Below are positions 3,065-64,000 of a stretch of 64,000 nucleotides of DNA, piece after piece. The position numbers and the translations under genes are program-made. The notes under the pieces are model-generated. The model was not told where the DNA came from and ran no database searches. It worked only from the letters and a program-made list of their open reading frames with translations. The stretch covers positions 1-64,000 of the forward strand of contig JASHNU010000081.1 of NCBI GenBank assembly GCA_030041475.1, read 5' to 3'. Within the stretch, counting starts at the first letter, position 1. Every line of letters starts with the position of its first letter. This DNA is from Candidatus Sulfotelmatobacter sp. GTDB taxonomy: Bacteria; Acidobacteriota; Terriglobia; Terriglobales; Acidobacteriaceae.

Positions 3065-3178
3065 CCGCAGACCTCCCCGAAAGACTTTCTACTGGGAATA
3101 CGTAGGAGGACGCTTCGCGGTTCCATCCGTCGAGTACCGGACAAACGTCTTTTCCTGCGAAATCGTAACTTCTCTTAA

Positions 3179-30234: not shown

Positions 30235-30245
30235 CAGCGCTTGAT

Positions 30246-30350
30246 TGTCATTCTGAGCAAGCGTTCTGTGCGCAGCGAAGGACCTGGGCGAGCCGCGCGA
30301 TCGGGGCGCGTTCTTTGCGACGCAACAATCGCGCGCTTGGCTCGTTTCCG
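30246..30350. repeat. Long copy of the TGTCATTCTGAGC dispersed repeat
   Basis: Starts with ttgtcattctgagc, contains gcgcagcgaagga-cctgggcgagccgcgcgat, and ends with a complementary atcgcgcgcttggctcg, so the second half folds back on itself (arms gagccgcgcgat and atcgcgcgcttggctc). It is closely matched at 51011-51113. It fills the gap before kbl. Confidence 0.8.
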
Positions 30351-32283: not shown

Positions 32284-32328
32284 TGTGCCCCCCTTTGAGG
32301 TAAAAGCGTCGCCGAGCTTCGCTCGGGT

Positions 32329-32350
32329 GGACAGCCGGGGCGGCTGCCCT
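32329..32350. repeat. Dispersed GGACAGCCG hairpin
   Basis: ggacagccggggcggctgccc is an inverted repeat with one mismatch and a 3-base loop. The same hairpin core occurs inside mutS2 (63727-63748) and, degraded, at 62529-62547. Confidence 0.6.
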
Positions 32351-32368
32351 ACATGAGCGGATTAGATT

Positions 32369-44474: not shown

Positions 44475-44816
44475 GGGCTGGGTCTGTGGTGTCCCTTTGG
44501 CCAATAAGTTCTTAAATGAAGCTCGGCCGTACGCGCTGCCTCGCTGGTCGTTAGAAACGAAAATACAGTCACACGTTGCATCCGGCCTTCGCGGAGGCAA
44601 GGCGTGCCGTATCCGGCGCGTTAAGGCTCACTTGTCCTTATTCTCGCATCTTTCCCGCCATTCCGCTCCATCCAGATGCGAGCCCGACTTAGGCATGTAA
44701 ACATATGTAAAGAGAGACGCTTAGGAGCCAGGGGCGTTGGGATATCCTGGCCCCCCAATTTCTAGGTTTGTCATTCCGAGCGGAACAAGGAACCTGTTTG
44801 TCCGGGGCGGCGCAAC
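44475..44816. other. Intergenic region with one repeat copy
   Basis: No convincing gene. It holds a short tgtcattccgagcggaacaaggaacctg repeat copy at 44767-44796, directly after the end of the oxidoreductase gene. No promoter or terminator was convincing. Confidence 0.5.
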
Positions 44817-45938: not shown

Positions 45939-45991
45939 ATTGTAAACGGAATCGCTGCAAAGAGCATCTGCCTAAGCGGCGAAGGTTAGAC

Positions 45992-46020
45992 TTGTCATTC
46001 CGAGCGGAGCGAGGAATCTG
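45992..46020. repeat. Short copy of the TGTCATTCCGAGC dispersed repeat
   Basis: ttgtcattccgagcggagcgaggaatctg, nearly identical to 62678-62706. Confidence 0.8.
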
Positions 46021-46087
46021 CTTCTCTAATCCGCCCGTCGGAGCGTGCCAAGAAAGGACCTCAATGCGGAGGGCAGCGCTCACATCG

Positions 46088-46595: not shown

Positions 46596-46740
46596 ACAGT
46601 GGGTGCCCCACTCTACGTGGTTTTCGTAGGGTGGAGATTTTGATTCTCCGATTTTCCTCGCGGTTGCCCCCCGTGTCGCGTTTTCTGCGACAGGGTGGGG
46701 ATGTTGAATTCCCGAAGGTGCCCCATCCTAGCGTCGCGCG
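46596..46740. repeat. Dispersed hairpin cluster, intergenic copy
   Basis: Contains cggttgccccccgtgtcgcg-ttttct-gcgacagggtgggg (46661-46700), nearly identical to an in-frame segment of mutS2 (63643-63683), plus related tgccccact...gggtgg arms on both sides. The stretch between DinB and lpxI has no gene. Confidence 0.75.
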
Positions 46741-47711: not shown

Positions 47712-47792
47712 TTGTCATCCTGAGCCAGCGTCGTTTGCGCAGCGAAGGATCTGGGCGAGCGACCGCGCGTCATCCCGCACGAGCGGGATGAC
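47712..47792. repeat. Copy of the TGTCATCCTGAGC dispersed repeat
   Basis: cttgtcatcctgagccagcg...gcgcagcgaaggatctgggcgagc, followed by a hairpin (gtcatcccgca-cgagc-gggatgac). It fills the gap before pepF. Confidence 0.75.
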
Positions 47793-51010: not shown

Positions 51011-51113
51011 ATGTCATCCTGAGCGAAGTGCACTTTACTGAGCGAAGGACATGGGCGAGCCGCGCGATGTGGCGCGTTCTCTGCGCCACTCAAACGCGCG
51101 TTTGGCTCACTTC
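51011..51113. repeat. Long copy of the TGTCATCCTGAGC dispersed repeat
   Basis: Matches 30246-30350 along its length: atgtcatcctgagc, gagcgaaggac-atgggcgagccgcgcgat, an inner perfect hairpin TGGCGC-gttctct-GCGCCA, and the closing arm cgcgcgtttggctc. It separates lpxA from fabZ. Confidence 0.8.
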
Positions 51114-60762: not shown

Positions 60763-62517
60763 ATGACTCTATTTCAACGGCACCGCTGGTTTGTGGCTGC
60801 GGCCGGGATCGCCCTGGTCTTTGCCTCCGTGTCGTTGACCGCGCACAAGAGCCACGCTCTCACCGCCTTTGCAGATCTCATGGCTTTCGTCCTGCCCTTA
60901 ATCGGCGCAGGCATTGCCTTCGCTAACGCCTTCAACCGCCCGCGCGTAGAGCGCAGCTTCTGGGCCATGATGACATTGGGTTTCGCCCTTTGGGCGAGCA
61001 ATGAGGGGGCCTGGGCCTGGTTTGAGCTCGCACTGCATAAGGATATTCCCGATCCCTTTTTCTTTGACATCATTCTTTTCTTTCATACCCTGCCCATGAT
61101 CGCCGCCGTGGCCTGGCGTCCGGACTTGCAGAAAAAGGAAGGCCGAGTCCACCTGAGCGCGCTCAACTTTCTCATGCTGCTCGGCTGGTGGGTTTTCTTG
61201 TACGCCTTTATCGTATTTCCCCACCAGTACGTTGTGATGAATCTGGTCACGTACAACGTCTACTACGACCGCCTTTTTGCGGTGGAGAACGGCCTCTTGC
61301 TGGTCCTTCTCGGCTTGGCCATTTGGACCAGTTCCGGCGGATGGCGCCGCCTTTACCTACATTTTCTCGGGGCCACCCTGCTGTATGCAGTTAACTCTCA
61401 GCTGCTCGACCGCGCCGCGGTTCAGAAGTCGTACTACTCCGGCAGTCCCTATGACATCGGTCTCATCGCAACCCTCGTGTGGATGCTCGCCGCATCCCTT
61501 TCAGCCCGCCAGTGGGATCTAAAAACCGTCGAATACCGGCTCGACTCGCGATGGAAGCAAGTGGTGCCCCGTGCTGCCATGCTCGCCATCCTGTCGCTGC
61601 CGGTGTTGGGCCTGTGGACTGTTCTGCGCGACCAATCCTCGTTTCGCACGGTCGCCTTCCGCATTTTCATTGTGCTGGGCGCAATGCTGGTCCTAGGCAC
61701 GTTCGTCTTTTTCCGGCAGTTTTTCCAGAACCAGGCCCTGATGACATTGCTGCGCGACTCGCGCCATAGCTACGATGGCCAGAAGCGCCTGCAGAGCCAA
61801 CTGGTACAGAAAGAAAAGCTGGCTTCCCTGGGCACGCTGGTCGCAGGCGCCGCCCGGGAGATCAACAACCCCCTCACGTCCATCATGAATAGCTCGGAGC
61901 AGCTTTGGGCACAGCCCGGCCTCACCGATCAGCAGAACGCCTTACTGCGGAAGATCGTGCACCAGGCCAGCCGCACCCGCGATCTCGTCGCCAACCTGCT
62001 CAGCTTCGCCCAGCAGTCGCCCGGCGAAAAACAAATCGTCGATCTCACCATCCTGCTCAGCCGTGCTGCTCAAATGCTCGAATCCCGCGCCTCTTCCGGC
62101 AAAGTCCGCGTCAGCGTGTCGATCCAACCCGATCTTCCCCGCGTCCGGGCCAACGCCAATCAGATGTTCCAGGCCTTCATCGAAATCATCGAGAACGCCG
62201 TGGACGCCACCATTGAAGCAGACAACTCCGGAATGGTCGAAATTACCGCGCGCCGCCAGGGCGGCGAAATCGTGCTCTCCTTTTCCGACACCGGACTCGG
62301 TATTCGAGAACCTGAGCGCGTATTCGATCCCTTCTACACCACCAAGGCCGTCGGCAAAGGCACCGGCCTCGGGCTGAGCGTCGTTTATGGCGTCATCCAG
62401 GACCATGGCGGCCAAATCACTTGCCAGAACAAGCCCGAGGGCGGAGCTCTGTTCATCGTCCGCCTCCCCGTCGCCGCCGAATCCGCAGCCCACGTAGCCG
62501 CCGCCTCCGGCGACTAA
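60763..62517 (+). CDS. Histidine-kinase-like membrane protein lacking the phospho-acceptor His
   Basis: 584 residues. The N-terminal half has about eight transmembrane helices (7TM/MASE-like); a HisKA-like helix follows, then an intact HATPase_c domain (N-box EIIENAVDATIEA, G1 SDTGLGI, G2 KGTGLGLS). In the H-box, the expected VAHEINNPL reads AAREINNPL: the phosphorylated His is replaced by R365 (codon CGG at 61855-61857). All surrounding H-box residues are conserved. It therefore should bind ATP but not autophosphorylate at the usual site: a pseudokinase, or one whose acceptor is elsewhere. No response regulator is adjacent. Confidence 0.9.
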   Translation: MTLFQRHRWFVAAAGIALVFASVSLTAHKSHALTAFADLMAFVLPLIGAGIAFANAFNRPRVERSFWAMMTLGFALWASNEGAWAWFELALHKDIPDPFFFDIILFFHTLPMIAAVAWRPDLQKKEGRVHLSALNFLMLLGWWVFLYAFIVFPHQYVVMNLVTYNVYYDRLFAVENGLLLVLLGLAIWTSSGGWRRLYLHFLGATLLYAVNSQLLDRAAVQKSYYSGSPYDIGLIATLVWMLAASLSARQWDLKTVEYRLDSRWKQVVPRAAMLAILSLPVLGLWTVLRDQSSFRTVAFRIFIVLGAMLVLGTFVFFRQFFQNQALMTLLRDSRHSYDGQKRLQSQLVQKEKLASLGTLVAGAAREINNPLTSIMNSSEQLWAQPGLTDQQNALLRKIVHQASRTRDLVANLLSFAQQSPGEKQIVDLTILLSRAAQMLESRASSGKVRVSVSIQPDLPRVRANANQMFQAFIEIIENAVDATIEADNSGMVEITARRQGGEIVLSFSDTGLGIREPERVFDPFYTTKAVGKGTGLGLSVVYGVIQDHGGQITCQNKPEGGALFIVRLPVAAESAAHVAAASGD

Positions 62518-62528
62518 GAGGACCATGT

Positions 62529-62583
62529 AGGGACAGCCGCGGCTATCCGGAAAATTTCGTGTGGGGCGGACGCATTCGTCCGC
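62529..62583. repeat. Dispersed GGACAGCCG and GCGGACGCATTCGTCCGC hairpins
   Basis: gggacagccgcggctatcc (related to 32329-32350 and to a segment inside mutS2) and gcggacgcattcgtccgc (62566-62583, related to the first hairpin of the insert in hyuB). They lie just after the histidine-kinase-like gene. Confidence 0.6.
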
Positions 62584-62677
62584 TCCTGAGCAGTGAAGCC
62601 GCGCCTGAGATCCAGTTCGCGCTATCCATCACGACTGTCATTCGAAGCAAATGCGAGCGCGCCCCCACCTAAATTTT

Positions 62678-62706
62678 TGTCATTCCGAGCGGAGCGAGGA
62701 ATCTGC
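62678..62706. repeat. Short copy of the TGTCATTCCGAGC dispersed repeat
   Basis: ttgtcattccgagcggagcgaggaatctg, almost identical to 45992-46020. Confidence 0.8.
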
Positions 62707-62734
62707 TTTTGTACTTCCTGTACCATAACTAGCG

Positions 62735-64000
62735 ATGTCTTCCGCGCTGCTCCACACCTCCGCGCGCGTCCTCGAGTTCGACTCCCTCCGCGAACTTCTC
62801 CGCGGATACGCTCCCTCCCCGCTCGGCCAGCAGCGCATCTCGACGCTCGCTCCCTCCACCGATCGCGCCTGGATCGAAACTCAACAAATCCTCACCACCG
62901 AAATCCGTGAATTCTGGCGCGTCGGCGGGCGCTTCGATTTCTTCGGCCTGACCGAAATCGCCCCACTTGTCGAGAAATCCCGCATCGCCGGCGCGGCCCT
63001 CGAAACCGCCGAAATTCGCGACGTAATCCTCGTCGTTGACCGTGCTGCCGAATGGCACGAGATCGCCCTTCACCCGCCCGCCAGCATGAAATCCGACTGG
63101 CGCGAAACCACCGCCCTCTCCCGCCAGATCGGCGACTTCACCGACTTTCTGCGCTCCTTCCGCAACAAAATTCAGCCCGACGGAATCCTCGACGACAAAG
63201 CCTCGCCCGAACTCGCCCGCATCCGCCGCGACATCGAAAAACAGCGTCGCGCCATCCAGGACTCGCTCCGCTCCTACCTGCGTCGCCTCGCCGAAGACGG
63301 CGCGCTGCAGGAGGAACTCGTCACCATCCGCGGCGAGCGCTTCGTCATCCCCGTCAAAGTCGAACACAAGCGCCGCGTGCAGGGCGTCGTCCACGGCGCC
63401 AGTTCCAGCGGCCAGACCGTATTCGTCGAGCCGCTCGAAACCATCGAGCAGAACAACGAACTCGTCCGCCTCCTCGAAGAAGAGCTCGCCGAAATTCACC
63501 GCATCCTGCTCGAAATGACCGCCCGCATCGGCACGAATGCCGCCGCCATTCTTGCCGCCGTCGATACGCTCGCCGAACTCGAACTCCAGTTCGCCAAGGC
63601 CCGCTTCGCCGAAGACTACAGCTGCGTCGAAGCAAAAGTTGCGGTTGCCCCACCCTTGTCGCGCTCTTTGCGACAGGGTGGGGACTCTGCCGAAGCCGGA
63701 AGCCCGAAGCTGCAAGATTCATGTGGGGACAGCCGCCCTCGGCTGTCCATGGCGGGCGAATCCCGCCTTTTGCTGCACAATGCAAGGCATCCCCTCCTCG
63801 AACGGAACCTCAAAGCCAAAGGTGCAACCGTCGTTCCCATCACCATCGAACTCGAAGGAGACCACCGCCAGCTCATCATCACCGGCCCCAACACCGGAGG
63901 CAAAACCGTCGCGCTCAAAACCGTCGGCCTGTTCGCGCTCATGGCCCAATCCGGCCTTCCCGTTCCCGCCGACCGTGCCGAACTTCCCGTCTTCGACGCC
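62735..64000 (+). CDS. mutS2: Endonuclease MutS2 (partial, runs off the window)
   Basis: 422 codons from the ATG at 62735 without a stop; the 3' end is outside the window. MutS2 core: clamp and lever regions, TIRGERFVIPVKVEHKRRVQGVVHGASSSGQTVFVEPLE, NARHPLLE and Walker A TGPNTGGKTVALKT (about 387-400). MutS2 suppresses recombination or rescues collided ribosomes. Between YSCV and RLLLHNARHPLLE about 45 extra residues (EAKVAVAPPLSRSLRQGG...) are encoded by 63641-63770, which contains two perfect or near-perfect DNA hairpins shared with intergenic repeats. The frame is open throughout. Confidence 0.93.
   Translation, partial: MSSALLHTSARVLEFDSLRELLRGYAPSPLGQQRISTLAPSTDRAWIETQQILTTEIREFWRVGGRFDFFGLTEIAPLVEKSRIAGAALETAEIRDVILVVDRAAEWHEIALHPPASMKSDWRETTALSRQIGDFTDFLRSFRNKIQPDGILDDKASPELARIRRDIEKQRRAIQDSLRSYLRRLAEDGALQEELVTIRGERFVIPVKVEHKRRVQGVVHGASSSGQTVFVEPLETIEQNNELVRLLEEELAEIHRILLEMTARIGTNAAAILAAVDTLAELELQFAKARFAEDYSCVEAKVAVAPPLSRSLRQGGDSAEAGSPKLQDSCGDSRPRLSMAGESRLLLHNARHPLLERNLKAKGATVVPITIELEGDHRQLIITGPNTGGKTVALKTVGLFALMAQSGLPVPADRAELPVFDA
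63643..63770 (+). repeat. Two dispersed palindromic repeats in frame inside mutS2
   Basis: Hairpin 1: ccccacccttgtcgc / gcgacagggtgggg (63648-63662 and 63670-63683), nearly identical to intergenic 46661-46700. Hairpin 2: GGACAGCCG-ccct-CGGCTGTCC (63727-63748), related to intergenic 32329-32350 and 62529-62547. Together they encode the extra residues in MutS2 without a stop. Confidence 0.8.

Follow-up and report, generated by a model that had tools for sequence, protein, structure and literature searches.

Short palindromes appear to have repeatedly invaded, in frame, a flexible joint of MutS2 in a group of soil Acidobacteriota

Rickettsia palindromes such as RPE-1 and others are kept in frame inside conserved proteins. 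Intragenic REPs have also been described in several species, many of them in genes of DNA repair and replication (uvrA, recB and dnaE2), and two Xanthomonas recB genes were hit at about the same site (PMC3733652, in the sections available to us). Those sections also name the Rickettsia palindromic elements (RPEs) and list Acidobacteria among the bacteria with RAYT-like (TIRYT) transposases. A preliminary description of the present locus, which confined well-known cases of palindromes surviving as protein-coding sequence to Rickettsia and a handful of others, thus drew the circle too narrowly. REPs are overwhelmingly extragenic in P. fluorescens SBW25, where the commonest 16-mers have 1,067 occurrences, 14 of which overlap genes (PMC3116915, available sections). 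The strings mutS and mutL are absent from the main text of PMC3733652, and a literature search among open-licence papers, available in part, returned no mutS2 gene with such repeats.

The window, the whole stretch of 64,000 nucleotides analysed here, contains the start of a mutS2 gene on the plus strand (62735..64000) that is cut by the window end and complete in the contig (62735-65290, 852 aa). The frame is open through an insert in the 63643..63770 region as far as the TAA stop at 65290, and the protein scores 742 bits against the MutS2 model NCBIfam TIGR01069 (cut-off 400) and contains MutS_V, MSSS and Smr domains; the position, frame and lack of stops first reported for the insert were thereby confirmed. 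The insert lies in a hypervariable linker before the ATPase domain, 46 residues long in this protein (residues 299-344, 63629..63766, plus strand), between ...FAKARFAEDYSCV and LLLHNARHPLLE, with tblastn anchors on both flanks in 136 loci. When the linker was placed on structure by alignment to solved MutS2 chains, 12 residues (290-301) of 8qpp, which we take to be Bacillus subtilis MutS2, were unaligned against 49 (296-344) in the window's protein, and the linker is probably a surface loop. The original estimate that the insert adds 38-45 residues holds against the shortest linkers (8 residues) only, and not against the median of 19 in the 136 loci or the 12 residues of 8qpp.

The insert consists, in order, of a family-A hairpin, a spacer and a two-hairpin family-B element. 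The family-A palindrome (63643..63686, plus strand) is read as VAPPLSRSLRQGGD and scores highest among all A matches in the genome (E 1.5e-19), which excludes a chance origin. Its stem, CCCCACCCT(T)GTCGC / GCGACAGGGTGGGG, is formed by 63648-63656 and 63658-63662 with 63670-63683, leaving a bulged T at 63657 and a loop at 63663-63669. The spacer (63687..63720, plus strand; CTGCCGAAGCC...GATTC) ends in a manner resembling the usual left neighbours of genomic B copies (TC before ATGT). The family-B element (63721..63767, plus strand; CM match, E 8.6e-14, likewise excluding chance) is read as CGDSRPRLSMAGESR and begins with ATGTGGGGAC at 63721; it has a GTGG foot, a first hairpin at 63727-63748 with a perfect 9-bp stem (63727-63735 / 63740-63748), and a second hairpin, GGCGGG-CGAAT-CCCGCC (63751-63767), that is part of the element and was absent from the preliminary description. 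A known RNA family was rejected as the identity of these palindromes, since Rfam gave no matches at E≤1 in 62400-64000 and nothing but a tRNA in 11 loci with repeat copies.

Both families have further copies in the window. The partner first proposed for A at 46661-46700 is a genuine A-model match at 46660..46703 (plus strand, E 2.8e-9), and that proposed for B at 32329-32350 lies within a B match with a GTAG foot and both hairpins (32309..32354, minus strand, E 2.6e-9). Neither copy is spanned by any of the six best-scoring nearby ORFs, so both appear to be intergenic, in line with the original proposal that the two families also exist outside genes here. A degenerate B copy, ATGTAGGGACAGCCGCGGCTATCC (62525..62560, plus strand; CM match, E 4.9e-4), occupies the gap upstream of mutS2 between ORFs ending at 62514 and starting at 62735, where the single spanning ORF among those shown scores -0.11. 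Other repeats are also present: a dispersed repeat TTGTCATTCCGAGCGGAGCGAGGAATCTGC occurs at 44750-44799, 45974-46023 and 62659-62708, and a further family, TTGTCATTCTGAGC...GCGCAGCGAAGGACCTGGGC, at 30245-30301, 47712-47768 and 51026-51068.

In its own 4.6-Mb genome the A model gave 68 matches at E≤0.1 (57 at E<0.001), four of them repeating a palindrome already matched on the other strand, which leaves 64 places, and the B model gave 84 (82 at E<0.001). In these searches 150 of 2541 and 150 of 5691 candidates were scored, respectively, so that some copies may have escaped detection; the weakest matches could be due to chance. Copies elsewhere in the genome, which the preliminary description had made a test of its proposal, are thus numerous, and 17 further A copies were seen among the 30 own-genome loci inspected. 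An A or B match was present in all 45 genus genomes searched, own genome included. The A consensus of 13 copies carries neither a GTAG nor a CGTC tag, and is free of stops in all six frames. GTGG or GTAG precedes the stem in all ten genomic B copies used for the model, the GTGG foot being presumably a variant of the GTAG tag of REPs; the GTGG form is stop-free in all six frames and the GTAG form in five. Among these ten copies seven base pairs have changed on both sides, six of them in hairpin 2, and none of 500 shuffles produced as many. A and B are dispersed REP-type repeats. In one relative (L062, G120 contig 4, 764-1426) eight strong family-A copies, with starts 63-107 nt apart, lie just 5′ of mutS2.

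For a distant relative from another genus (G034), a search of the genome with its mutS2 linker yielded 52 matches, the linker itself among them and some places hit on both strands, whereas a control of 273 coding bases upstream of the linker matches itself only. About ten of the 52 matches span two inverted A-like hairpins as a single unit, resembling a REPIN. The mutS2 linker of L204 has a stretch similar to TTGTCATTCCGAGCGGAGCGAGGAATCTGC, and that part (about 52-86) matches further places in G034.

We examined 120 of the matched places in the own genome (70 of the 84 for B and 50 of the 68 for A) for location within ORFs with coding-like flanks. A total of 106 did not qualify, including 60 of the 70 B matches, and the remaining 14 comprised ten B (mutS2 included) and four A. 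Pfam domains were found in 13 of these 14 ORFs, the exception being L241, which had no Pfam match. B stands in frame in RecG (L100), with 32 residues where 1gm5 has 4; in ValRS (L117), between the catalytic and anticodon-binding domains, with 32 residues where 1gax has 6; and in ribonucleotide reductase (RNR, L233), with 75 residues where 7b9p has 45. The RNR match (38.8 bits) was accepted as BLAST also detects it and the solved relative is without the stretch. Dispersed palindromes accordingly lie in frame in intact conserved ORFs in mutS2, RecG, ValRS and RNR, and the count by frame suggested at the outset shows B read in three frames: RecG and RNR share one, whereas MutS2 and ValRS each use a different one. 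Six weak ORF matches (28-39 bits; L234, L235, L238, L247, L260 and L269) were set aside as possibly decayed copies or chance, and A in MnmE as a net insertion was rejected by comparison with 1xzp.

The 136 distinct loci with MutS2 anchored on both flanks came from whole-genome searches and named records, under titles such as Candidatus Sulfotelmatobacter, Acidobacteriaceae, Terriglobia and the like. Matches were obtained in 105 genomes of the family outside the genus, 82 of which were used, and in 37 of the genus, 35 of which were used; none was obtained in 12 of 120 family and 8 of 45 genus genomes. Records that were identical were counted as one locus, and four loci were dropped, three without a C-terminal anchor (L062, L274 and L313) and one with an out-of-frame stretch containing N (L158). 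Linker length ranges from 8 to 85 residues (median 19; at least 15 in 83 of the 136), and the 180 residues upstream show 25 indels in 135 rows, each of 1-2 residues. By content 34 linkers were classed as B, seven as Q (CAGGGCTTCAGCCC), six as S (GAGCGAAGTCGAAGGG), five as A, 30 as other long and 60 as short, six linkers holding two kinds; Q and S were assigned by pattern, and B and A were checked by model. The weakest B linker counted was L153 (E 0.0043). Not counted were L079, whose match is on the reverse strand (E 3e-4), L338, which matches part of the model (E 0.0013), and L039 and L084 (E 0.014 and 0.025). The A class is backed by the A model in L061, L332, L338 and L348, and weakly in L204 (E 0.0013); L193, classed as other, matches the same model at E 0.0067. 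None of 54 distant family loci added later had B in the linker by the B model. Dispersal was examined for A, B and the L204 linker. Q is a candidate dispersed repeat at most, as neither the 136 loci outside their linkers nor the own-genome loci examined held a copy; S was seen at four places in the latter. Many relatives therefore lack the window's segment or carry another one, rather than all Acidobacterial MutS2 proteins sharing it. The proposal that mobile palindromes persist as protein-coding sequence is supported, and what had been described as one copy is really a recurrently colonised site.

Linkers of at least 45 nt were compared with neighbouring mutS2 windows of the same length. The perfect stem was longer than in any such window in 18 of 28 linkers from the genus and 9 of 36 from elsewhere, and not longer than in every control window in the other 37 of 64 (10 genus, 27 elsewhere). 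By folding energy, nine genus linkers and six from elsewhere beat every control window, against 0.37 and 0.46 expected. Taken across these relatives, a flexible joint of MutS2 appears to have been invaded repeatedly, and in frame, by short palindromes in this group of soil Acidobacteriota.

A MutS2 tree from which the linker was excluded requires at least 51 changes of class, and B must have been gained or lost at least 20 times. These counts are soft, since weak support of the tree (29 of its 133 inner branches are starred) inflates them. The strongest single case of turnover is the pair formed by the window's gene and L273 (JASHSV010000079.1), the nearest relative found and well supported on the tree: the two proteins have 734 of 804 residues in common outside the linker (91%), and the hairpins in the L273 linker differ from those of the window's gene. 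Outside the linker the two genes differ at 25% of four-fold sites against 4.4% of second positions, and judging from the sequences this part of MutS2 is under purifying selection. Linker content has been exchanged wholesale between L061 and L273. B lies reversed in the linker of L045, and comparison of L157 with L081 revealed a nested insertion, a 24-nt S element inside B. A second, less frequently used insertion place was found just before the Walker A motif, between ELE and QLIITGPNTGGKT, which are 30 aa apart in 111 of 129 loci; L273 carries an A-type hairpin there in frame (3105-3153, E 1.7e-5), and L163, whose record is also that of L331, has a 22-aa insert that matches B on the opposite strand (1004-1051, E 9.7e-7).

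We consider it probable that the linker is a landing pad, in which repeated in-frame insertion or replacement of REPs is tolerated at a flexible joint. The site would be an unconstrained stretch between the lever/clamp part and the ATPase domain, in which dispersed palindromes (A, B and other kinds in relatives) would insert, replace each other and nest; because the palindromes are without stops in most or all frames, net in-frame events would leave a working MutS2, and the linker would be tolerated rather than selected. Weighing against this reading are the near-constant placement of B within its own clade and the G126 variant, both described below, the 37 long linkers whose stems do not exceed the controls, the lack of Q copies outside linkers, the weak support of the tree and the lack of a transposase beside B. 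Three places in the own genome encode a Y1 transposase. One of them is a REP-associated tyrosine transposase gene adjoining a tRNA gene (L092, contig 49: 4369-4701; NF047646, 112.7 bits, cut-off 80), with inverted hairpins of the CCCACCCTTCG...CGAAGGGTGGG type on either side, where A-model matches lie on opposite strands (C49:4141-4179, E 0.011; C49:4794-4832, E 8.8e-5). These hairpins differ from A at the stem tip, indicating kinship and not identity. A would most likely be moved by this resident enzyme, a Y1/HUH single-strand enzyme of which it is a candidate substrate, and single-strand transposition would then be the route into mutS2. B shares with GTAG-class REPs the foot tetranucleotide and the many dispersed, mostly extragenic copies; no RAYT flanked by the same hairpin was seen, as none of the three Y1 places has a B-model match within 2.5 kb, in a 112-contig assembly from which one may be missing.

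The DNA of B in mutS2 is conserved beyond the needs of the peptide. Among 13 genus loci with B (78 pairs) the median identity at four-fold sites of the flanks is 0.44, against 25-28 of 28 bases in B. In 16 linkers with a CGDSRPRLS-type motif, identical residues share their codon in 748 of 854 cases within the element (0.876) against a flank mean of 0.532, and the element exceeds the flanks in 114 of 120 pairs. This is the opposite of the stronger conservation of amino acids than of DNA that was named in the preliminary description as evidence against a mobile origin; it indicates that the copies are renewed or constrained as DNA, and on both measures passive inheritance of B as protein sequence was rejected. 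Simple copying from the resident pool was also rejected. It draws weak support from the GGCCG variant, which makes up a larger share of the genome's copies where mutS2 has it (5 vs 12 genomes, one-sided p 0.015, post hoc and among related species), and is contradicted by G126, where the mutS2 hairpin variant is the sole exact copy of that variant in the genome and was therefore not recently copied from the resident pool.

For B within the own clade, a single ancient insertion, inherited vertically and kept near the consensus by gene conversion and self-templated arm correction, is a serious possibility to which we give rather less than even weight. In the 49 rows of this clade B is nearly constant in position, orientation and frame, the sole departure being a weak match in reverse (L079); a single old insertion renewed where it stands accounts for this better than numerous independent insertions at random. 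The higher GGCCG share noted above would also suit conversion, as would the compensated stem changes in the 25 mutS2 linkers that match the B model: 96.9% of cells pair and 37 cells have changed on both sides, with none of 500 shuffles doing as well, although this covariation is supportive rather than proof of selection because the alignment was fitted to the B structure and its rows are related. In G126, however, there is no other exact copy of the variant to serve as conversion donor, and an ancient B insertion leaves unexplained the A, Q, S and other palindromes at the site, the reversed B of L045, the nested insertions and the exchange between L061 and L273. It is compatible with the landing-pad reading for the other palindromes.

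Selection on the hairpin at the nucleotide level, for instance because a fold in the mRNA delays the ribosome between two domains or regulates mutS2 expression, could likewise account for the excess codon identity and for the paired stems, but seems unlikely to us, given that 60 of the 136 loci are short and without a recognised repeat, some of them nested among carriers, that many different palindromes occupy the linker, and that the element is also present in unrelated genes and outside coding-like ORFs. MutS2 in Bacillus acts on collided ribosomes. A more elaborate version, in which MutS2 would be autoregulated by ribosome stalling on hairpins of its own message, each lineage renewing them from its active REP family, is decidedly improbable. 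That the peptide itself is selected, as a new interaction or a flexible spacer of defined sequence, is hardly credible: CGDSRPRLS does recur in many species, but the codon identity points to identity at the DNA level, different genes of the own genome use three frames of B, and linkers differ strongly in several close pairs. An artefact of short repeats misjoined in metagenome assemblies can be dismissed almost entirely, for although the contigs of two relatives stop at or near the site (L062/L274, 66 bases past the N-terminal match; L313, about 14 codons before its end), 136 loci drawn from many assemblies have collinear flanks that stay in frame.

If the linker is a landing pad as we propose, mutS2 could serve as a flight recorder of palindrome mobility, its flanks giving a clock and its reading frame filtering the events, so that rates, target choice and replacement of REP elements become measurable across tens of species, and whether intragenic palindromes are refreshed by transposition, conversion or selection becomes testable. 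In these Acidobacteriota dispersed palindromes supply protein sequence, being read in more than one frame and recurring at a single joint, where closely related species thus carry quite different peptides.

The elements compare with three described systems. They resemble REP/REPIN-RAYT systems (PMC3116915) in being short hairpins, in the GTAG or GTGG foot (B here), in forming inverted doublets as a unit (about ten places in G034) and in the presence of a RAYT flanked by related inverted hairpins, as seen for A; those in PMC3116915 are overwhelmingly extragenic, whereas here copies also lie inside mutS2, RecG, ValRS and RNR. With RPEs they have in common in-frame palindromes in conserved proteins; the differences are that 106 of the 120 places examined here failed the coding-like ORF test and that a REP-type transposase is present. 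Intragenic GTAG/CGTC REPs are likewise short dispersed palindromes inside ORFs, but in the sections of PMC3733652 available to us no site is shown to turn over fast and to have been recolonised, in tens of species, by more than one family. The new part is a single linker of a conserved protein entered repeatedly by several palindrome families, with exchange between close relatives.
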